In this document: in pieces, positions 26,286-59,305 of the stretch
How positions within the stretch are numbered: the first letter of the stretch is position 1
Layout of the letters: each line of letters opens with the position of its first letter
Virus record (IMG/VR): IMGVR_UViG_3300032268_000832
Span: 62,001-126,000 of that record
Source: a virus
Reading direction: 5' to 3' (one strand)
DNA: 64,000 nucleotides
The notes under the pieces: generated by a model
Databases searched by the model: none
Seen by the model: the letters and a program-made list of their open reading frames with translations, nothing else
What the model was told of the DNA's origin: nothing
Position numbers and translations under genes: made by a program

Positions 26286-26987
26286 TTATTTATTTAATTC
26301 TAAATTATTTTCATCATCTTCTTCTGGTTCAACTATTGGTTCAACTGGTTTAGGAACTGGTTTAGGTACAACTCTTTTCATTGGTCTAACCACTGGTTTA
26401 GGTTGTTTGGCTGGTTTAGTTTCTGGACCCACTTGTGGTTTTGCAGTTTGAGATTGTGTAACAGGTGTACCAACTTTTGGAAATAAACTTTGTTGTGTTT
26501 TTTCCATTTTTTTGGTAGTACTTGGTGAATACACGTAATCAAATTGTGCTATAGTTGGTGTTGAAGCAACTGAACTTGAGCGATTACCATCTTTATTAAA
26601 TTTAAATTTAGGTTGATAAAAAGGAACTTTAGTTATTTTTAAATTCGACATTTTAGCTAAATTAAATTTTTTCCAACCTTCAAAACTTTCAATATTACCA
26701 GTTCTTGGGTTGACACCTCTTTCCATCCCATCTCTACTTATTTGATAAGCATCGATTAAGTCATTAGCTATGGGTTTTTTTGTTGAAATGTTTCTTTGAT
26801 GTATTTGAACGAATCTGTTTGATGTGTTACCGTAATCATCAGTATAATCAAATGAAACATGATAAAACTTACCATTATCACCAGCCAATATTTTTTCAAT
26901 ATCACTAACAGGAACCGCTTCTAAAAGCTGAACCGCATTAAAAATTTCTTCTAATATAATGTTTTGATAAATATTGTAAAGTTTCAT
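26286..26987 (-). CDS. tagged protein with WYL-like barrel and Pro-rich tail
   Basis: The 233-residue protein starts MKLYNIYQNIILEEIFNAVQLLEA, with ILE (residues 11-13) and LLE-A (21-24), (L/I)-x-E sites like T4 prohead protease sites. Residues about 38-115 (FYHVSFDYTDDYG; LIDAYQISRDGMERGVN; GWKKFNLAKM) resemble the small beta-barrel seen in WYL-type domains. The last 70 residues are Pro/Lys/Val-rich repeats ending in an acidic run. It is in a late operon. The domain call is weak; the start tag supports a head-internal protein. Confidence 0.5.
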   Translation of the reverse strand: MKLYNIYQNIILEEIFNAVQLLEAVPVSDIEKILAGDNGKFYHVSFDYTDDYGNTSNRFVQIHQRNISTKKPIANDLIDAYQISRDGMERGVNPRTGNIESFEGWKKFNLAKMSNLKITKVPFYQPKFKFNKDGNRSSSVASTPTIAQFDYVYSPSTTKKMEKTQQSLFPKVGTPVTQSQTAKPQVGPETKPAKQPKPVVRPMKRVVPKPVPKPVEPIVEPEEDDENNLELNK

Positions 26988-28455: not shown

Positions 28456-30243
28456 ATGCCTTTTAGAACAAAATTAGACTTTTCAAGTAATAGACAAGTT
28501 AAACAATTTGAGAAAACAAAAACGATTTTATCGGGTGGTACATCATTTGGTTTAACATTTAACGATTTAACAACAGGACCAAACCCTTTAACAAGTGGTG
28601 AAACAACTAGTCAATCATTTGTTGCTAGTACATTCTCTGGAAACAGTGCGACAACAGTTTTCAATTGGTTTAACCCAGCAATGGCTTTGGCTGAACCTTA
28701 TTTTTCTGCGTTAACACCTTCAAACTCAGCGACAACACAAACAGTTGATTCTGTTTTTGGTGTTAGTAGCACAACGGTAATTGATGGGAACACAGTAGCG
28801 CTATCTTATTCTGGTGTTGGTTTTGATATAACAGCTATAGCTATGTATAGTTTAGGTGGTGGTGCTTATTCTGGTACAGTTGAAACCGAAGAATTGGTTT
28901 TTTATTCTGCTACTAGTTTAGATTATACAGGTAGAACTATATGGGTTGATGTTTCTGGAATGACTAGAACTGAAAGACTTATCGTGACTAACAGTCCACA
29001 AATTGGTTATGTTTTAACATGTAATGATTCCGAAGGTATGGCAACATGGAGCCCAGTTACTGGTGTTACTATTAGTGGTGGGTCGATATTATGGTCTTCT
29101 GGTACTGGTACTTATTCTTTAGCAGCTAAAAATCATGGTTCTGTAGCTAGTGGAGATTATTCAGTCGCTTATGGTTTTGGAACGATAGCTAGCGGTAATT
29201 ACTCACATACGGAAGGTTATTTAACTGGAGCTGGTGTTTATTCACACGCTGAAGGTTATTCTACAGAAGCTAAAGGTGATGCATCACATGCTGAAGGTAA
29301 AGAATCAATTGCTAATGGTGATTATTCACATGCTGAAGGTAGCGGTACAACTGCTGATGGTGATTATTCACATGCTGAAGGTGTTGGTAATTTTGCTATC
29401 GGTATTGGTAGTCATGCTGAAGGTGGGTATAGTTTTAAAACTGGGTATTTACCAACTACTGCAACAACTGATAGTTCACACGCTGAAGGTGTTGGAACAA
29501 TAGCTAGTGGTGTTGGTAGCCATGCTGAATGTTACAACACTAAAGCAACTGGTGATGCATCACATGCTGAAGGTGGTGGTACAACTGCTAGTGGTGAATA
29601 TTCACATTCTGAAGGTTTTTTTACTATAGCTAGAGGCAATAATTCACATGCTGAAGGTTCAAATACTATAGCTAGTGGTAGTACAACACATGCTGAGGGT
29701 CAAGGGACAATAGCTAATGGTGATGCTAGTCATGCTGAAGGTTGGTATACGAGAGCGACTGGTACAACATCACACGCTGAAGGTTGGAATACGATAGCTA
29801 GTGGTTTTGCATCACATTCTGAAGGTTTTTTTACTATAGCTAGTAATACTGGTTCACACGCTGAAGGTTCTGGGACAACAGCTAGTGGTATTGCTAGTCA
29901 TGCTGAAGGTGGTGCAACAATAGCTAGCGGTAATTATTCACATGCTAGTGGTTCAGGTTCAACAGCTAGTGGTAATTATTCATTTGTTGGTGGGTTAAAT
30001 TCTAGGGCTTTAGCTGATTTTTCTTTTGTGCATGGTGAGCAGTCAGTTGTTGATAGCGGTGCGACGAATTCAATAGTATTAGGTGCTGGTATTTCAGGTA
30101 CTACTTCAGATACTTTATATACTAATACTTTAAATTTACAGTCAGTACTTGTTGCCGCTGATAACGCAGCAGCTATAGGTCTTGGTTTAGAAGTTGGTAC
30201 AGTTTACAGAACATCAGCAGGTCAATTAATGATTAGATATTAA
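28456..30243 (+). CDS. tail fibre/adhesin with YadA-head-like repeats
   Basis: The 595-residue protein has an N-terminal part without repeats (1-220) and then about 20 tandem 14-residue repeats of the form SHAEGxxTxASGxx (about 230-525), the pattern of YadA-head left-handed beta-roll repeats in trimeric adhesins. The C-terminal part (LADFSFVHG, then a short GLEVGTVYRTSAGQLMIRY end) closes the fibre. In phages such rods bear receptor-binding tips or side fibres. It is the first gene of the fibre cluster after a late-type promoter. The receptor is unknown; the tandem repeats are prone to recombinational length change. Confidence 0.8.
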   Translation: MPFRTKLDFSSNRQVKQFEKTKTILSGGTSFGLTFNDLTTGPNPLTSGETTSQSFVASTFSGNSATTVFNWFNPAMALAEPYFSALTPSNSATTQTVDSVFGVSSTTVIDGNTVALSYSGVGFDITAIAMYSLGGGAYSGTVETEELVFYSATSLDYTGRTIWVDVSGMTRTERLIVTNSPQIGYVLTCNDSEGMATWSPVTGVTISGGSILWSSGTGTYSLAAKNHGSVASGDYSVAYGFGTIASGNYSHTEGYLTGAGVYSHAEGYSTEAKGDASHAEGKESIANGDYSHAEGSGTTADGDYSHAEGVGNFAIGIGSHAEGGYSFKTGYLPTTATTDSSHAEGVGTIASGVGSHAECYNTKATGDASHAEGGGTTASGEYSHSEGFFTIARGNNSHAEGSNTIASGSTTHAEGQGTIANGDASHAEGWYTRATGTTSHAEGWNTIASGFASHSEGFFTIASNTGSHAEGSGTTASGIASHAEGGATIASGNYSHASGSGSTASGNYSFVGGLNSRALADFSFVHGEQSVVDSGATNSIVLGAGISGTTSDTLYTNTLNLQSVLVAADNAAAIGLGLEVGTVYRTSAGQLMIRY

Positions 30244-53462: not shown

Positions 53463-53478
53463 GATATTTATGTTAAAC
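53463..53478 (+). promoter_or_regulatory. late-type promoter
   Basis: The box reads GATATTTATGTTAAAC and lies 7 bases before the ATG at 53486. Confidence 0.55.
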
Positions 53479-53485
53479 AACTATT

Positions 53486-53857
53486 ATGAAGCTTATAATT
53501 ACAGAAACACAATACAATAGACTTTTTTTAAACGAAGAAAAAGAAGTATCATTCAATTTTGATAATGACACCATATTGGCGTTCGGAAAATTAATTGGAT
53601 TACCAATGAAAGGTCAAAACGGTTTTTTAGCTGATAGAGCGTTAGATAACCAAGAAGTATTATCTAAGATTTATTCAATTATGACAAATGTTAATGAGAA
53701 GAATAAAATTATCGATGATTTGGGGAATAAAGGTATGGTTGATTCAGATAAAAAACTACATGATAATATTGAATCAATCGTTACAAATTTTAACAAATAT
53801 TCAAAGGATAAAACATTAAATTTGGATACCGTGTTAAATAAAATACTTAGAAAATAA
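53486..53857 (+). CDS. small tagged protein, possible head-internal
   Basis: The 123-residue protein begins MKLIITETQYNRLFLNEEKE. Residues 15-17 (LNE) form an (L/I)-x-E site at the end of a short tag, like the cleavage sites of T4 internal proteins. The rest is helical and polar (DRALDNQEVLSKIYSIMTNV) with no recognised family. The tag resembles the start of the 422-residue protein at 58037 (ILTETQY). It lies alone between sheath and tube genes with its own promoter, as a cassette inserted into the tail module. Confidence 0.6.
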   Translation: MKLIITETQYNRLFLNEEKEVSFNFDNDTILAFGKLIGLPMKGQNGFLADRALDNQEVLSKIYSIMTNVNEKNKIIDDLGNKGMVDSDKKLHDNIESIVTNFNKYSKDKTLNLDTVLNKILRK

Positions 53858-53895
53858 AATAATTTTTATTTTTTCTTCAATTTTTTTTCTTTCAT

Positions 53896-53912
53896 GATAT
53901 TTATAATTAAAT
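53896..53912 (+). promoter_or_regulatory. late-type promoter before tail tube
   Basis: The box reads GATATTTATAATTAAAT. It is 56 bases before the tube ATG, leaving a leader of unusual length in this genome. Confidence 0.55.
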
Positions 53913-53968
53913 AATAATTTATTACCAAAAAAAAGGTACTAATACATATCTTAAAAAAAACAAAAATT

Positions 53969-54457
53969 ATGGCTGATTTATTAATGAAAATGCCCCTACC
54001 ATACGAGCCTAAGAAAAAGAATCGTTGGTTAATTACATTTCCAGCTGACTTAGGTATCCAACAATGGTGGTTATCTTCAGCATCTAGACCTTCAATAACA
54101 CAAAATGAGGTTGAGATTCCTTTCCTAAACACATCTACATGGGTTATTGGTAGATTTACTTGGGAAGCAATTGACGTTACATTCCGTGACCCAATTGGTC
54201 CTTCTGCTACTCAAGCAATTATGGAATGGGTTCGTCTTCACTCTGAATCAATCACAGGTCGTCAAGGTTACGCTGCTGGTTATAAAAGACCAGTTGAGTT
54301 AGAAATGCTTGACCCGACAGGTGTTGTTATCGAGAAATGGTTATTAGATGGAACTATGCTTACAAATGTAGGATTTGGTGATTTATCATTTGAGGATGAT
54401 GGTATCGCTGAGATTACAGCAACTCTTAGGTTTGATAGAGCAATCTTATTATTCTAA
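53969..54457 (+). CDS. gp19: tail tube protein, gp19-like
   Basis: The 162-residue protein is the size of T4 gp19 (163). It has KKNRWLITFPADLGIQQWWL at the N-terminus, RFTWEAIDVTFRDPIGPSAT and ELEMLDPTGVVIEKWLLDG, then a final strand TATLRFDRAILLF, the conserved tube fold. Tube hexamers stack inside the sheath to form the DNA channel. The gene follows the sheath as in other contractile-tailed phages, separated by the small tagged gene. A terminator follows at 54498. Confidence 0.93.
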   Translation: MADLLMKMPLPYEPKKKNRWLITFPADLGIQQWWLSSASRPSITQNEVEIPFLNTSTWVIGRFTWEAIDVTFRDPIGPSATQAIMEWVRLHSESITGRQGYAAGYKRPVELEMLDPTGVVIEKWLLDGTMLTNVGFGDLSFEDDGIAEITATLRFDRAILLF

Positions 54458-54497
54458 TATTTAAAAATATATTATCCTAACCCATAAAAAATAAATA

Positions 54498-54530
54498 TAA
54501 AAACCATCTTTTTAGGTGGTTTTTTTATTT
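54498..54530 (+). terminator. rho-independent terminator after tube gene
   Basis: A stem of AAAACCATC and GGTGGTTTT (one wobble pair) closes a 6-base loop and is followed by a T run. Confidence 0.75.
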
Positions 54531-54536
54531 TATAGT

Positions 54537-54553
54537 AATATTTATAATAAAAT
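54537..54553 (+). promoter_or_regulatory. late-type promoter
   Basis: The box reads AATATTTATAATAAAAT, 4 bases before the ATG at 54558. Its position supports that start over one at 54516. Confidence 0.65.
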
Positions 54554-54557
54554 AAAA

Positions 54558-55223
54558 ATGCGAAAATTAGATAAACTAAAAAATATTAGAAAAGTTAATT
54601 TATTAATAGAACAACGATATTTGAGTGAATTTAATGGTGGTGAGAATGAAGTTAGACTTAAACAGTTATACTCTGGTTATTTAGATACTATTTTCCCTAA
54701 TTCTGATATTAAAAAAATACTATACCATGGAACAAAGTCTAAAGAACTTGAAGGTGGGTCTTTTAGGGTATCTCAGGATGGAACATATGGTTCAGGTGTA
54801 TATTTTTTTGATAGAAACCACAAATATAGTGTTGGTGAGTTTGGTGATAATACGATATTTGTTAAGATAAATTCTAGTATGGCGTTTAATAATATATTAC
54901 TTAAACAAGAATGGAGTAAATTAGCAAATAAGTTAAAAGATAGTCCAGATTATCACCATAGGGATTCTTTGAGTGGTTTTATCAACCAATACATTAGAAA
55001 AGAAGGGTATGATACTATTATTGATTATTATGGTTCAGATATAGTTTATGTTGCTTTATATTTAGAAAATATACATATTTTGGGTGATGAAAAAGACATA
55101 TTATCTTTTAAAAAATACGTTGAAGCAAATAAAAATAACCAATTAAATAATGAAATAAAAGATGGTGTTGAAGATTTATTTAACACTAAACCTAATTTAA
55201 AAAATATAAAAATAAATAATTAA
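54558..55223 (+). CDS. tagged ADP-ribosyltransferase-like protein
   Basis: The 221-residue protein opens with a basic tag ending in LLIEQRYL; LIE at 16-18 is an (L/I)-x-E site. The body resembles ADP-ribosyltransferases of the PARP-like kind: LYHGTKS with His57, GTYGSGVYFFDRNHKYSVGE with Tyr82, a strand FVKINSS, and EGYDTII before the last strand VYVALYLENIHIL. The usual catalytic Glu before the last strand is not obvious, so activity is uncertain. T4 packages the ADP-ribosyltransferase Alt in its head and injects it; the same tag plus this fold suggests the same use. It lies after the tube gene under its own late-type promoter. Confidence 0.65.
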   Translation: MRKLDKLKNIRKVNLLIEQRYLSEFNGGENEVRLKQLYSGYLDTIFPNSDIKKILYHGTKSKELEGGSFRVSQDGTYGSGVYFFDRNHKYSVGEFGDNTIFVKINSSMAFNNILLKQEWSKLANKLKDSPDYHHRDSLSGFINQYIRKEGYDTIIDYYGSDIVYVALYLENIHILGDEKDILSFKKYVEANKNNQLNNEIKDGVEDLFNTKPNLKNIKINN

Positions 55224-55231
55224 ATAAAACT

Positions 55232-55648
55232 ATGAGAAGATTTGATAAAAAAATAAATTTAAAAAAAGCAAATATATTAGCAGAACAAAGATATTTGGTG
55301 ACTAAAGGTTTGATTAACGAAGGTCCTATAACAGATGTTGATGGGGTAACCAATGATTTATTAAAAGATTATATTTATGCTTATGATAACGATAAAGATT
55401 TAGGTATGGTTGATGCTAAAATATATGATTTAATGAAAAAAACACTTAGTGTTCATGGTGCTGAACCAGAAATTAAAAAACAAATGTATTTAACCATGGC
55501 TGAAAAATTAAAAAATACAAATATACCTAAATTACAATCGTTTGGTCAAACCTATAGTATGATTGGTAGGTCATTTGGTACTGAAAGCCCTATTGGTGAT
55601 ACTAGTGATATGGTAAATCATATAAAAAGTCAAGGTGGTTTAGAATAA
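55232..55648 (+). CDS. tagged protein sharing start with ART-like gene
   Basis: The 138-residue protein starts with a 22-residue segment almost the same as the ART-like protein (an MR-x-x-DK basic start and L-A-E-QRYL at 16-22), but the rest (GPITDVDGVTNDLLKDYIYA...) is unrelated and helical, with no recognised family. The LAE at 16-18 is in the same place as LIE in the neighbour. Two adjacent genes with one tag and different bodies indicate that the tag is a delivery module. It is 8 bases after the ART-like gene and before a strong terminator. Confidence 0.6.
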   Translation: MRRFDKKINLKKANILAEQRYLVTKGLINEGPITDVDGVTNDLLKDYIYAYDNDKDLGMVDAKIYDLMKKTLSVHGAEPEIKKQMYLTMAEKLKNTNIPKLQSFGQTYSMIGRSFGTESPIGDTSDMVNHIKSQGGLE

Positions 55649-55665
55649 TAATAACAAACTAAAAT

Positions 55666-55711
55666 AAAATGAGTTGATTATTTAATTTAATTTAATCAGC
55701 TCATTTTTTAT
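55666..55711 (+). terminator. rho-independent terminator
   Basis: A 15-bp stem AAAATGAGTTGATTA / TAATCAGCTCATTTT (one wobble pair) with a 12-base loop is followed by TTATTT. It ends the ART-like cassette. Confidence 0.82.
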
Positions 55712-55731
55712 TTACAAAAAAATTAACTTTC

Positions 55732-55749
55732 TTATATTTATTTTTAAAT
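55732..55749 (+). promoter_or_regulatory. late-type promoter
   Basis: The box reads TTATATTTATTTTTAAAT, a weaker variant, 9 bases before the ATG at 55759. Confidence 0.45.
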
Positions 55750-55758
55750 AGTTTTAAA

Positions 55759-56454
55759 ATGAATAAACAAGTTAAAAATAAAAAAGAAATTTTAAGTGGA
55801 GACACCTTAGAGATTAAACATTTAAATGGTGTTAAAAGTTATTTAAAAAAAACACCACCTATTGGGAATAGACATGAGGATGCGAAAAGTATTAAAGGTG
55901 ATTATCCTAAATCAATTAATGAATATTTAGATAAAAGGAAAAATGAGGTTCCTATGTATGACCCTAAAACAGGTGAACCAAATCCTTATTATGAAAAGTT
56001 AACTGGTAATAAAAATCCTTTGTTAGAAACACCTAAAATGATAAATCCTAATATTAAAGAACCTAAATTAAAAAATAGGTTTTTAGTTCATTTACCAAAA
56101 GAATTTGGTATTGATATATGGGATGTTAAAAATATAAACAGACCTACAGTTATTTTAAAACCAAAAAAAATTTTAGGGTTAACTTATGGTTATGAAAAAA
56201 ATTGTTCTCAAATAAACATTGAATTTTATGACAAAATACAAAATAAAAATAAAAACCTATTAAATTATTTAGAAACCCAAAAAAAATTCTCATTTTATAT
56301 TGAAGAGTTAGACCCAACTGGTGTTGTAATCGATAGATTTGAATTAAGTCATTGTAATTTAACTTATCTTAGTTTTGGTGATTTAGATTATAAATCTAAA
56401 GAAATAAATAATATTATCTTATCAATTAATATTGGTAAATTAGAATTAAAATAA
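55759..56454 (+). CDS. tail tube paralogue
   Basis: The 231-residue protein has an N-terminal polar extension of about 90 residues (KKEILSGDTLEIKHLNGVKS) and a C-terminal domain that follows the tube protein: KNRFLVHLPKEFGIDIWDVK (tube: KNRWLITFPADLGIQQWWLS), then FYIEELDPTGVVIDRFELSH (tube: LEMLDPTGVVIEKWLLDG) and NIILSINIGKLELK. It is therefore a tube-fold paralogue, as gp48 and gp54 are in T4, where they begin the tube at the baseplate. A role as the tube-initiator or adaptor is likely. It shares a message with the chaperone genes. Confidence 0.72.
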   Translation: MNKQVKNKKEILSGDTLEIKHLNGVKSYLKKTPPIGNRHEDAKSIKGDYPKSINEYLDKRKNEVPMYDPKTGEPNPYYEKLTGNKNPLLETPKMINPNIKEPKLKNRFLVHLPKEFGIDIWDVKNINRPTVILKPKKILGLTYGYEKNCSQINIEFYDKIQNKNKNLLNYLETQKKFSFYIEELDPTGVVIDRFELSHCNLTYLSFGDLDYKSKEINNIILSINIGKLELK

Positions 56455-56461
56455 ATAAAGT

Positions 56462-57727
56462 ATGTCAGATATTAAACCAAATGTTTTCCCAAGCAATCAA
56501 CCACAAAAACCTAATTTAACCGAAGCTGAAAAACTTGCAGCGTATGAAGCTGAAAAGATGATGGTTACTAACGAAATTTATTCGTCTCAAATGCAAACAG
56601 ACACACCTTATGAACATATGAGTGCGATTGAACAAATGAGATATAGAACTGAAGCTCAATTAAAACAAAGACAAGACATTGGCGTTGTTAAAGACCCTTC
56701 ATTATCAGAAAAAACCAATTCTAGAGTATTTCAACAACCAACTAAAAAAGACAACAACGAAGAACAAATTAGACTTAGAGATGAGCAGTTAAAAAATAAT
56801 TTACAACAAACTCAGAACTATCAACGTTTATCTCAAGAAGCTATGGATAGAAATAAAGAATATTACGAACAACAAACAATGGAAAATAAACCAAGTTATC
56901 AACCACAACCTAGTAGTCCTGTTATTAAAGATAAGACTACTTATACATCACAACAAGCAATAGACCCATACATATTAGAATTGAGTCAACCAAATTATAA
57001 CGCACCTTTTGATGTTATTCCTTTACCTTCTAAGGGTAAATTATATAGAAATAAAAAACAAAATGTAAGATTAGCTTATATGACAACGGCTGATGAAAAT
57101 ATCCTTACTAGCCCTAATTTATTAAAAAGTGGTGAGTTTTTAGAAATTCTTATAAACAGAAAATTATTAGAACCTGAATTACGTTATAAAGATTTATTAC
57201 CAGGGGACCGTAACGCAATCATGCTTTGGCTTAGAGCGACAGCTTATGGTGAAATGTATCCAGTTACTTTATTGGATGAAAACGACGAAGCTTTTGAAAC
57301 GGAAATAAATTTAAATGAACTTAAAACAATTGATTTAAACGTTGAACCAGATGAAGATGGTTTATTTAATTTTACAATGCCTTTAAGCAAAGCAAATGTT
57401 AGATTTAAATTATTAACATGTGGTGATATTGATAATATTGAAGAAATGTTAGAGAGAGATAGGGAAAACAATATTTTAGTTAACAACGCGAATACTTACA
57501 AATTAGAAAAAATGATTATTGAAGTTAATGGTGATACCAATAAAACTATGATTAGAGATTTTGTTAATTATATGAGAATACAAGATTCAAAAGAATTCAA
57601 TAAATTTGTTGAATCCATTGAGACTGGTATTGATTTAGATATTGAGGTTGGGACTCCTGGAGGTGGGTCCATAAAAACCTTTCTTCCCCTTAACGTCAGA
57701 TTTTTTTGGCCTGACTTCCGAGTATAA
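56462..57727 (+). CDS. tail assembly/baseplate hub chaperone, gp26-like
   Basis: The 421-residue protein has a polar, Gln-rich N-terminal half with helices, and a C-terminal domain (about 180-421) opening with FDVIPLPSKGKLYRNKKQNV then LAYMTTADENILTSPNLL and LLPGDRNAIMLWLRATAYGE; the LPSKG-x-x-Y element and MTTADE are features I associate with the T4 gp26-type hub assembly family. It lies between the tube paralogue and the tape measure, the place of tail assembly chaperones in many phages. A run of seven T near its end (57701-57707) allows a +1 shift into the next frame. Confidence 0.6.
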   Translation: MSDIKPNVFPSNQPQKPNLTEAEKLAAYEAEKMMVTNEIYSSQMQTDTPYEHMSAIEQMRYRTEAQLKQRQDIGVVKDPSLSEKTNSRVFQQPTKKDNNEEQIRLRDEQLKNNLQQTQNYQRLSQEAMDRNKEYYEQQTMENKPSYQPQPSSPVIKDKTTYTSQQAIDPYILELSQPNYNAPFDVIPLPSKGKLYRNKKQNVRLAYMTTADENILTSPNLLKSGEFLEILINRKLLEPELRYKDLLPGDRNAIMLWLRATAYGEMYPVTLLDENDEAFETEINLNELKTIDLNVEPDEDGLFNFTMPLSKANVRFKLLTCGDIDNIEEMLERDRENNILVNNANTYKLEKMIIEVNGDTNKTMIRDFVNYMRIQDSKEFNKFVESIETGIDLDIEVGTPGGGSIKTFLPLNVRFFWPDFRV

Positions 57728-57744
57728 ACCAATTGTTTTGGAAG
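57701..57744 (+). promoter_or_regulatory. probable +1 frameshift site
   Basis: Seven T (57701-57707) are read as TTT TTT TGG; the Phe tRNA on the second TTT can slip forward one base onto TTT (705-707), giving GGC CTG ACT in the frame of the next ORF. CTTCC (57715-57719) and GGAAG (57740-57744) form a 5-bp stem 7 bases downstream. The second frame is open upstream of the slip with no good start before 57759. Confidence 0.6.
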
Positions 57745-57758
57745 AAACTTTTATCGTT

Positions 57759-57980
57759 ATGCAACAATTGAAAACACCTTATATTGACGTAATGTCAATG
57801 CCAGTGTATGAAAGAAGGTTTTTTATTAATTTATTATTAAACCAACATGAAAAACAGCAACAATACATTGAAGATAATGCGGGTACAACAAATTCAAACG
57901 CTAAGGGTTCTAGAAAAACAAAAATATCTGGAGATGCTTTAAAATCAAAAATGAAATCTGGAGAAATCCCATTAAATTAA
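57759..57980 (+). CDS. C-terminal chaperone extension or gp51-like protein
   Basis: The 73-residue ATG form (MQQLKTPYIDVMSMPVYERR...) starts inside a longer frame that is open from 57675. If made by +1 frameshift at 57701-57707, the frame is a C-terminal extension of the gp26-like protein, beginning FFGLTSEYKPIVLEETFIVM. A MPVYERRFFINLLLNQH helix is the main feature, followed by a basic tail. In T4, gene 26 is followed by gene 51 in the same place. Frameshift fusion of an upstream chaperone gene before the tape measure is the usual arrangement in tailed phages. Separate translation from ATG 57759 is the alternative; its upstream GGAAG is 14 bases away. Confidence 0.55.
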   Translation: MQQLKTPYIDVMSMPVYERRFFINLLLNQHEKQQQYIEDNAGTTNSNAKGSRKTKISGDALKSKMKSGEIPLN

Positions 57981-57981
57981 T

Positions 57982-58005
57982 TAATCCCCATTTTGGGGAT
58001 TTTTA
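57982..58005 (+). terminator. rho-independent terminator
   Basis: AATCCCC / GGGGATT pairs around the loop ATTTT, followed by a short T run. It ends the tube paralogue-chaperone unit. Confidence 0.78.
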
Positions 58006-58013
58006 ATTTATAA

Positions 58014-58030
58014 GATATTTATAAATAAAA
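58014..58030 (+). promoter_or_regulatory. late-type promoter
   Basis: The box reads GATATTTATAAATAAAA, 6 bases before the ATG at 58037. Confidence 0.6.
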
Positions 58031-58036
58031 CTTATC

Positions 58037-59305
58037 ATGAAAAAGAAAATAATTTTAACTGAAACACAATATCTTAAGTTAACTAAATTTTTATTGGAAG
58101 ACATAAATAATGATTTTAAATACATTAAGAATGGTGATATTTTAAGTTTTACGTTAAAAAATAATCAAAACGTAAATTTAAAAATCACTAGCGTAAACAT
58201 ACCTAATAATGAAATTTTAGCTTATGGTCCAAAAAATGAAAAAATAATGTTAAGGATTGGTGAATTCAACGAAAAAAACGATTTTTTAACTTATCATCAA
58301 TTTGATGATGTTGCTAAAAAATACATACCTAAAAAAGTTTATGTTAAAGATATGAATATTTGGAGAGATAATGATTTATTTGTCGCTCCAGAAAATATTA
58401 CTAAACCAACAAATAATCAGTCAAATAACAACATAAATGTAAATCAACAACAAAATAATCAATCTAAAAATTTAAGTGGTTTAGAAGTTAATAATGTAAT
58501 AACAGTTAAAAATCAAAATGATGAAACTTATTCTATTACAATAACTTCTATTGAAGGTGATGATGTTTATGGTAAAGACCAAGATAATTTTGATGTTGTT
58601 ATTAAAAATATAGATGATAAAAATAAAGAAATGACAATTATTAAAAATGATGGTGATAATCAAATTGAAGAAATTATAAAATTTGAAGAGATTAACATAG
58701 AAAAAAATAAAAATAAAATTAACCCTGATTATTATAATGATTTATTTAATAAGTATTATAAAGAAATCATAAACGACCCTAATTTAAAGAAAGCTTTTTA
58801 TAAAGCACCTTCATTTTGGAATTATTTCACGTCTGCTTTAAATAACGAAAAAGCTAGAGGTAAAGGTATTTTTCCCGCATATGAAATAATTAACGGTTAT
58901 TTTAATAAAAAAATTGATGAAAAATTACCAGGATTTGCTAATAAAGAAAATAAAAGAGCTAGTTTTTATTTATTTGATGATATTAATATAAGGTATAAAA
59001 AAATAAATGAAGAAGAATTTAAAAATTTTACTTTAAACGCTGGTTATTATAAAGCAACTGTTAGACAATATGAAGCTGGGTTAGGTGACGTAAAAGTTTT
59101 AACATATAGAAGTAGTGGTGGGTCTTTTGGTTTCAAGATAATTGTAAAAAAACCAACTGGTGAAAGACCTGATGAATATTTTTGTGACGTATATGTTAAT
59201 AAAAATAATGTCGAGGAAAATAAATATTTTGTTGAAAATGTCAGAATTAAATTTTTAGATTCTGAAGGTTATACATCTTATGAAAAATTAAAAAAAAATA
59301 GTTAA
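58037..59305 (+). CDS. large tagged protein, possible head-internal
   Basis: The 422-residue protein starts MKKKIILTETQYLKLTKFLL followed by ED; the (L/I)-x-E site is L19-L20-E21. It then has a beta-like part, an Asn/Gln-rich linker (about 118-150) and a second beta-like repeat related to the first (NVITVKNQNDETYSITITSI parallels FTLKNNQNVNLKITSVNIPN), and a C-terminal part with a long helical segment and a RSSGGSFGFKIIVKKPTGER sheet. No family is recognised. It sits between the chaperone and tape-measure genes with its own promoter, 2 bases before the latter. Confidence 0.55.
   Translation: MKKKIILTETQYLKLTKFLLEDINNDFKYIKNGDILSFTLKNNQNVNLKITSVNIPNNEILAYGPKNEKIMLRIGEFNEKNDFLTYHQFDDVAKKYIPKKVYVKDMNIWRDNDLFVAPENITKPTNNQSNNNINVNQQQNNQSKNLSGLEVNNVITVKNQNDETYSITITSIEGDDVYGKDQDNFDVVIKNIDDKNKEMTIIKNDGDNQIEEIIKFEEINIEKNKNKINPDYYNDLFNKYYKEIINDPNLKKAFYKAPSFWNYFTSALNNEKARGKGIFPAYEIINGYFNKKIDEKLPGFANKENKRASFYLFDDINIRYKKINEEEFKNFTLNAGYYKATVRQYEAGLGDVKVLTYRSSGGSFGFKIIVKKPTGERPDEYFCDVYVNKNNVEENKYFVENVRIKFLDSEGYTSYEKLKKNS

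Follow-up and report, generated by a model that had tools for sequence, protein, structure and literature searches.

Short peptide tags that recur on otherwise unrelated proteins were found in a phage genome of the IMG/VR collection. To judge from their sequence, they are probably T4-type capsid-targeting sequences (CTS), which would be cut by the prohead protease and whose cargo would be injected into the host. The stretch analyzed (the window) comprises 64,000 nucleotides and corresponds to bases 62001-126000 of the virus record IMGVR_UViG_3300032268_000832 (306,463 bp), called G000 in the following. The genome contains modular tags, a prohead protease, matching (L/I)xE sites and an upstream element which is common to the tagged and the structural genes. 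G000 is classified as a T4-like phage with a contractile tail, based on a sheath match to T4-like phages, a gp23-type capsid protein and a gp21-type S77 protease. Gene numbers 53486, 54558, 55232, 58037 and 26286 are window coordinates, all other bare gene numbers are G000 coordinates.

Open reading frames (ORFs) were called mechanically across the whole record. The scan revealed three N-terminal tag families with far more carriers than the five window genes. Tag A (MKxxIKxLLRE) is present in 19 G000 proteins if looser variants are counted, tag B (MRRFDKxxNIxKANLLxEQRYL) in 4 and tag C (K(L/I)x(I/L)T(E/K)xQYxxL) in 5. A stricter form of tag C reads MK(L/I)IITExQYxxL. Together with three singletons (e.g., 26286) this results in about 31 candidates. 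The first-pass annotation of the window had proposed a single tag family, located mainly in the tail module. Shared tags were indeed found, but they fall into at least three distinct families, and while four of the window genes lie in the tail module, tagged genes are spread far outside of it. Many more occur outside the window, both in G000 and in its relatives. At an equal threshold, the record contains 62 N-terminal similarity pairs versus 4 pairs of internal segments; one of the four N-terminal similarity clusters consists of ordinary signal peptides. The regular expression for tag A was matched 16 times (mean of shuffles 1.7, maximum 5) and that for tag B 3 times, with 0 matches in shuffles. 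The tag families cannot be due to chance, whereas a bare (L/I)xE triplet could be.

The spread of the tags was followed with degenerate DNA patterns, which were scanned over 2.9 million viral contigs (IMG/VR). At least 118 stretches matched tag A, 44 matched tag B and at least 120 matched tag C, versus 6 (A) and 5 (C) for control patterns read backwards. Nearly all of the matches listed for the three tags stand at ORF starts, and for tag C 135 of the 137 matches listed fall 1-3 codons past an ATG. Among the matches listed, unrelated body clusters that bear the tag number 46 for A, 25 for B and 47 for C. Each tag is found on dozens of unrelated bodies and is not part of one ordinary domain, so that the short N-terminal peptide common to otherwise unrelated proteins, known from the T4-type CTS, is present here. 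The first-pass annotation had read one tag on unrelated bodies as a delivery signal, and the sharing itself is borne out by the sequences. With protein 54558 as query, 39 tagged contigs yielded 23 matches. Of these, 22 start in the tag and span only the N-terminal 23-72 residues, and one spans the body. Since the A, B and C loci were retrieved by pattern, conservation at the forced positions is no evidence. As a cellular motif tag A was rejected, with just 67 matches in 257 billion bases of cellular genomes; several of these are recurring start regions on one body, e.g., an asparaginyl-tRNA synthetase lookalike. In the 634 kb phage LR745206, 56 proteins form one N-terminal cluster within the 235 kb examined (400-635 kb), mostly with an N-terminus of the type MKYLKxFxES or MKHLKKFNES. 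No description of tag families A, B and C was found in the open-access full-text literature, the coverage of which is incomplete and leaves novelty unproven.

The tags are portable between bodies and positions. Protein 201709 of G000 is a fusion of two bodies whose junction keeps LNEVKNTLREGLITEAL (LREG), and relatives encode both halves as separate genes, each with its own tag A. Conversely, 14715 and 17834 are separate tagged genes in G000, whereas L073 has a fusion of the two that carries ESKVRVKNMLRENFVTEE where they meet. In the multi-domain proteins L087, L100 and L108, tags are located between the domains. In the DUF5661 protein 31957 (PF18905, 1.2e-15) and its homologue in G011, tag A is C-terminal, and the relative of 31957 in the cultured Flavobacterium phage immuto has MKKSQLRQIIKEAL at the N-terminus. 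The expectation of N-terminal tags therefore describes part of the cases; internal junctions and C-termini occur as well. One body can also bear different tags. Protein 14337 and an immuto protein share 67% identity, yet their tags differ save for LLRE. The immuto homologue (about 104 amino acids, at about 112.3 kb of MW353175) is annotated as ‘tRNA(Ile2) C34 agmatinyltransferase’, an implausible name. The CCA-type nucleotidyltransferase body has tag A in G000, is untagged in five other phages and bears MILKKYKMFLES (LR745206) or MIITKYAKFLES in two huge phages. The tags of immuto read FDLKKFLVE/N and MKKSQLRxIIKE/A (slash: candidate cut). A literature search for a published virion proteome of this tag-bearing cultured relative found none.

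The protease of T4, gp21, cleaves capsid and internal proteins after (L/I)xE. G000 encodes a protease of this type (S77) at positions 53563-54288, about 8 kb upstream of the window. It scores 88 bits to the family, is assigned to Peptidase S77 and matches the solved T4 protease (PDB 5jbl, E = 1e-15). Its residues H104, S168 and D194 are invariant in an alignment with three other phages. The prohead protease on which the first-pass annotation had made its idea depend is accordingly encoded, with conserved His, Ser and Asp. The gp23-type capsid protein lies just upstream of the window (55681-57510), and G000 possesses both the gp21-type protease and the capsid protein of a T4-type CTS system. 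The capsid protein keeps (L/I)(T/N/S/K)E, the maturation site, near residue 60 in 26 of 27 phages, namely in G000 (LLTE/ATT), 23 tagged relatives and 2 of 3 named phages; the one exception is immuto with VSE. The tags end in the same (L/I)xE motif. At the level of the motif, they would therefore qualify as peptides that end in a site for the prohead protease.

In addition, we counted (L/I/V/F)xE sites behind the tags, which were not used in the retrieval. A further site within 14 residues past EQRYL is present in 33 of 35 tag-B proteins (shuffled mean 13.4, maximum 20), and within 14 residues past QY in 96 of the 112 tag-C matches listed (shuffled mean 43, maximum 57). Both counts exceed all 500 shuffles. 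In each of the 14 homologues of 53486, the tag-C core is kept and at least one such site stands between core and body (FLNE/EKEVSF, MLVE/DKEISF, LLTE/TTNEVV, LLNE/NINGVL or ILKE/NVKEIV). The spacer lengths vary, yet the site falls at or near the boundary of the body.

An S77 protease is encoded in each of the nine tagged contigs that reach 250 kb. Among tagged contigs of 100-250 kb it was found in 13 of 30, versus 14.3 expected at one per genome of about 330 kb. It was also present in 4 of 24 random contigs, none of these controls reaching 250 kb. The simple proportion in tagged versus random contigs is weak, because most contigs are fragments, and was replaced by the length-corrected count. 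These counts fit a strict link between tag and protease, without being proof of it, as S77 may be common in contigs that large.

Many tagged genes share an upstream element with the structural genes. The element ATATTTAT occurs within 70 nt upstream of 15 of 31 tagged, 13 of 30 structural, 2 of 94 early-region and 35 of 311 other genes. For tagged versus other genes this corresponds to an odds ratio of 7.4 (p = 2e-6), a p-value which is optimistic since the motif was derived from the tagged and structural genes taken together, and the structural and early sets were picked after viewing the genome. TAnnTTTG is a promoter element of Bacteroidota. It shows the reverse trend (3 of 31 tagged, 0 of 30 structural and 33 of 94 early-region genes), and its position before early-region genes points to a Bacteroidota host for G000. 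We infer that ATATTTAT is a late promoter. The element before structural and tagged genes can be written ATATTTAT(A), and TATTTATA is the reverse complement of the T4 late TATAAATA.

The five window ORFs named by the first-pass annotation are all present, and four of them fall into tag families B and C. Gene 53486 (53486-53857, plus strand) encodes a tag-C protein of 123 amino acids. Its tag MKLIITETQYNRLFLNE (53486-53536) has the motif LNE at residues 15-17, with a predicted cut after E17. The gene is preceded by a putative late promoter element ATATTTAT (53464-53471, plus strand). The AlphaFold2 (AF2) model and the 14 homologues suggest a small all-helical body behind a separable N-terminal tag, the body being compact (predicted local distance difference test, pLDDT, about 85) and the tag loose (about 60). 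A fold search with this fair helical model against PDB and viral models matched no structure. The second tag-C protein, 58037 (58037-59305, plus strand, 422 amino acids), bears the tag MKKKIILTETQYLKLTKFLLE (58037-58099) with LLE at residues 19-21 and a predicted cut after E21; a putative element ATATTTAT is located at 58015-58022 (plus strand). Its C-terminal domain of about 170 amino acids recurs in other tag-C proteins of relatives. The segment ITETQY or LTETQY, which had been noticed in two of the five proteins, is tag C and belongs to a wider family.

Tag B is found on two adjacent proteins of the plus strand. Gene 54558 (54558-55223) encodes 221 amino acids with an ADP-ribosyltransferase (ART)-like body. 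Its tag MRKLDKLKNIRKVNLLIE (54558-54611) contains LIE at residues 16-18 with a candidate cut after E18, and a putative element ATATTTAT is located at 54538-54545 (plus strand). Gene 55232 (55232-55648) encodes 138 amino acids, the body having no known relatives beyond close phages. LAE stands at residues 16-18, and the tag region (55232-55321) has one candidate cut site past E18 (ILAE) and another past E30 (LINE). The 22-residue tags of these two proteins had been called nearly the same, which is generous at 13 of 22 identical residues; the bodies are unrelated, as claimed. The fifth gene, 26286 (26286-26987, minus strand, 233 amino acids), has a lone T4-CTS-like N-terminus MKLYNIYQNIILE with ILE at residues 11-13 and LLE at 21-23, which fits the T4-derived motif. 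It is the weakest member of the set, since no homologue was found and its N-terminal tag is shared with nothing else, so that membership rests on one N-terminus.

Elsewhere in the window, positions 28456-30243 encode a fibre-like protein with many SHAEG...ASG repeats, which resemble the head repeats of trimeric autotransporters. A block of glycosyltransferase, sugar-nucleotide and methyltransferase-like genes is located on the minus strand at about 4700-25600.

Several tagged bodies resemble enzymes. Protein 203675 is a polyA polymerase/CCA enzyme (PF01743, 2e-37), 213762 combines a kinase with a tRNA-ligase-type phosphodiesterase and 21984 is a nucleotidyltransferase. Proteins 200514 and 201709 contain the metallopeptidase-like motifs HELKH and HHELTH, respectively, seen in the sequence only. 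Protein 54558 matches PF18760 (ART-PolyVal) with E = 0.0028 and 18.9 bits, and is termed only ART-like because the score is under the curated cut-off of 31.2; its three homologues all match this family (best 4.9e-5). An AF2 model of 54558 was too poor to be used for the ART fold (pLDDT 42), and a search for this protein in named phages gave no match. Fragments of gp23 occur in G000 as well. The protein encoded at 278273-278839 starts with a tag-A-like peptide (MKKYIVKYLTE/N), and its body matches gp23 pieces in swapped order: residues 88-139 resemble residues 76-132 of the Mel-JY01 capsid protein, and residues 137-188 its propeptide (10-59). A second gp23-like fragment is a 150-residue ORF at 226370-226822 (PF07068 positions 154-206, E = 2e-13). 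Short gp23-like fragments are also present in the relatives G011, G009 and G021.

Binding to the scaffold, proteolytic cutting, packaging into the virion, injection and effector roles are inferred from these features. Late in infection, the phage would make about 30 unrelated proteins with a short tag, which is N-terminal and sometimes internal or C-terminal. The tag would bind the scaffold core of the growing head, and the protein would be enclosed. The gp21-type (S77) prohead protease would then cut after (L/I)-x-E, as in the major capsid protein, and free the protein in the head. Finally, the cargo would enter the next host cell together with the DNA, and enzymes among it (e.g., the ART-like protein 54558) may be active there immediately. 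T4-type capsid targeting, in an expanded form with several kinds of tag and tens of cargo proteins, is the best explanation of the sequence data and a probable one. Somewhat less firmly, we favor the view that large T4-like phages run a general cargo loading, with several non-homologous, interchangeable tags per lineage that are placed N-terminally, internally or C-terminally. Multi-domain cargo would be split in the head by the prohead protease, and each phage would inject tens of effectors, which could be read from its sequence.

The main rival is that some of the tagged proteins are core components. The tags would then be assembly signals of head-core (scaffold) proteins, which are cut and afterwards mostly cleared or kept, not injected. 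This is known for T4 gp22, gp67 and gp68, which are cut and cleared (PMC5694885), and head-operon proteins of G000 have similar sites (46327, KLNE/G; 51622, IIAE/G). Many tagged proteins also lack a recognisable enzyme domain. However, the CCA/polyA polymerase, the kinase with phosphodiesterase and the ART-like bodies have no evident assembly role, and the tagged bodies are highly diverse across phages, unlike a conserved scaffold. We consider this explanation unlikely. Injected effectors, as proposed by the first-pass annotation, are supported by the sequence, but some tagged proteins may be head-core components. Loading of the tail and portable start regions are less likely. The sheath and tape-measure genes flank four of the five window genes. 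This location does speak against head cargo and for tail cargo (tube or baseplate), and tag-B and tag-C genes stay close together in several relatives. Nevertheless, other parts of G000 (e.g., 200-214 kb) hold two of the four tag-B genes and the majority of the remaining tagged genes, the tag end matches the maturation site of the capsid protein, and S77 proteases act in the head, which makes tail loading very unlikely. Least probable of all are common 5’ ends that serve as recombination or expression elements with no function at the protein level. Some codon preference is common to tag A (AGA, CTT), but synonymous codons vary (ATA/ATT, GAA/GAG, CTT/TTA/CTA), tags are also present within fused proteins and at C-termini, positions in which a start region serves no purpose, and one body bears different tag sequences in different phages.

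Further observations weigh against capsid targeting by tags. Some tagged contigs of 200-250 kb are without detectable S77 protease and are perhaps fragments. In LR745206 the S77 match is weak (1.1e-4), and the tag, KKFNES or KTFES, departs from (L/I)xE. For two tagged enzymes, the promoters are of the host type and not late ones. In tag A, R10-E11 was forced in the retrieval and its conservation is partly built in. The generic T4-derived CTS motif (Phi-x-x-Phi-(L/I)-x-E) turned out to be unspecific and was dropped as proof, as a 2- to 4-fold enrichment was also seen in control contigs in which no S77 protease was detected.

Like the G000 tags, the T4 CTS (of IPI-III and Alt, cut by gp21) is a short N-terminal peptide on unrelated bodies that ends in (L/I)xE. 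In its sequence, MKTYQEFIAE, positions -6, -3 and -2 relative to the Glu are hydrophobic, as in tag A and the immuto tag. Both phages encode an S77 protease and a gp23-type capsid protein, and the ART-like cargo is reminiscent of T4 Alt. T4 has one tag and a handful of cargo proteins, in contrast to at least three unrelated tag families and about 30 proteins in G000. Internal and C-terminal tags, multi-domain cargo and another host group also set G000 and its relatives apart. In the T4 CTS of 10 residues, targeting depends on positions 4 and 7, and processing on 8 and 10 (PMC9026906). The T4 CTS is the one tag shown to be sufficient for loading a foreign protein into the head, and CTS fusions deliver foreign proteins (PMC3012670, PMC9026906). 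Alt is a packaged and injected ADP-ribosyltransferase (PMC9026906, PMC5512222), which is also processed C-terminally (PMC9026906).

The giant phages SPN3US and phiKZ likewise have a Glu-directed prohead protease, multiple propeptide cut sites and ejected proteins (PMC5694885, PMC10052503). The short helical N-terminus of gp53/gp54, MANFVKSKLARESVE, resembles tag A. Their protease, however, is of the S80 type with an AxE motif, most propeptides have 111-254 residues, and the common N-terminus quoted lies between paralogues. Polyvalent proteins are also multidomain or enzymatic (ARTs, metallopeptidases) and were proposed to be packaged in the head (Iyer et al. 2017, PMC5512222). They are recognised by domain content, whereas the G000 tags mark mostly small separate proteins; the term capsid targeting is absent from that paper.

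The injected proteins of giant phages are largely unrecognised, because the effectors resemble little in databases. As a loading tag is independent of the function of its cargo, many anonymous phage genes would become testable predicted effectors. If the proposed role is correct, the injected proteins of uncultivated giant phages would be predictable from sequence alone, and the predicted effectors may cover host takeover and anti-defence. The tags would also be new short peptides for loading chosen proteins into phage heads. For the large T4-like phages, this would mean that the capsid-targeting principle of T4 was scaled up, with different peptides in different lineages.

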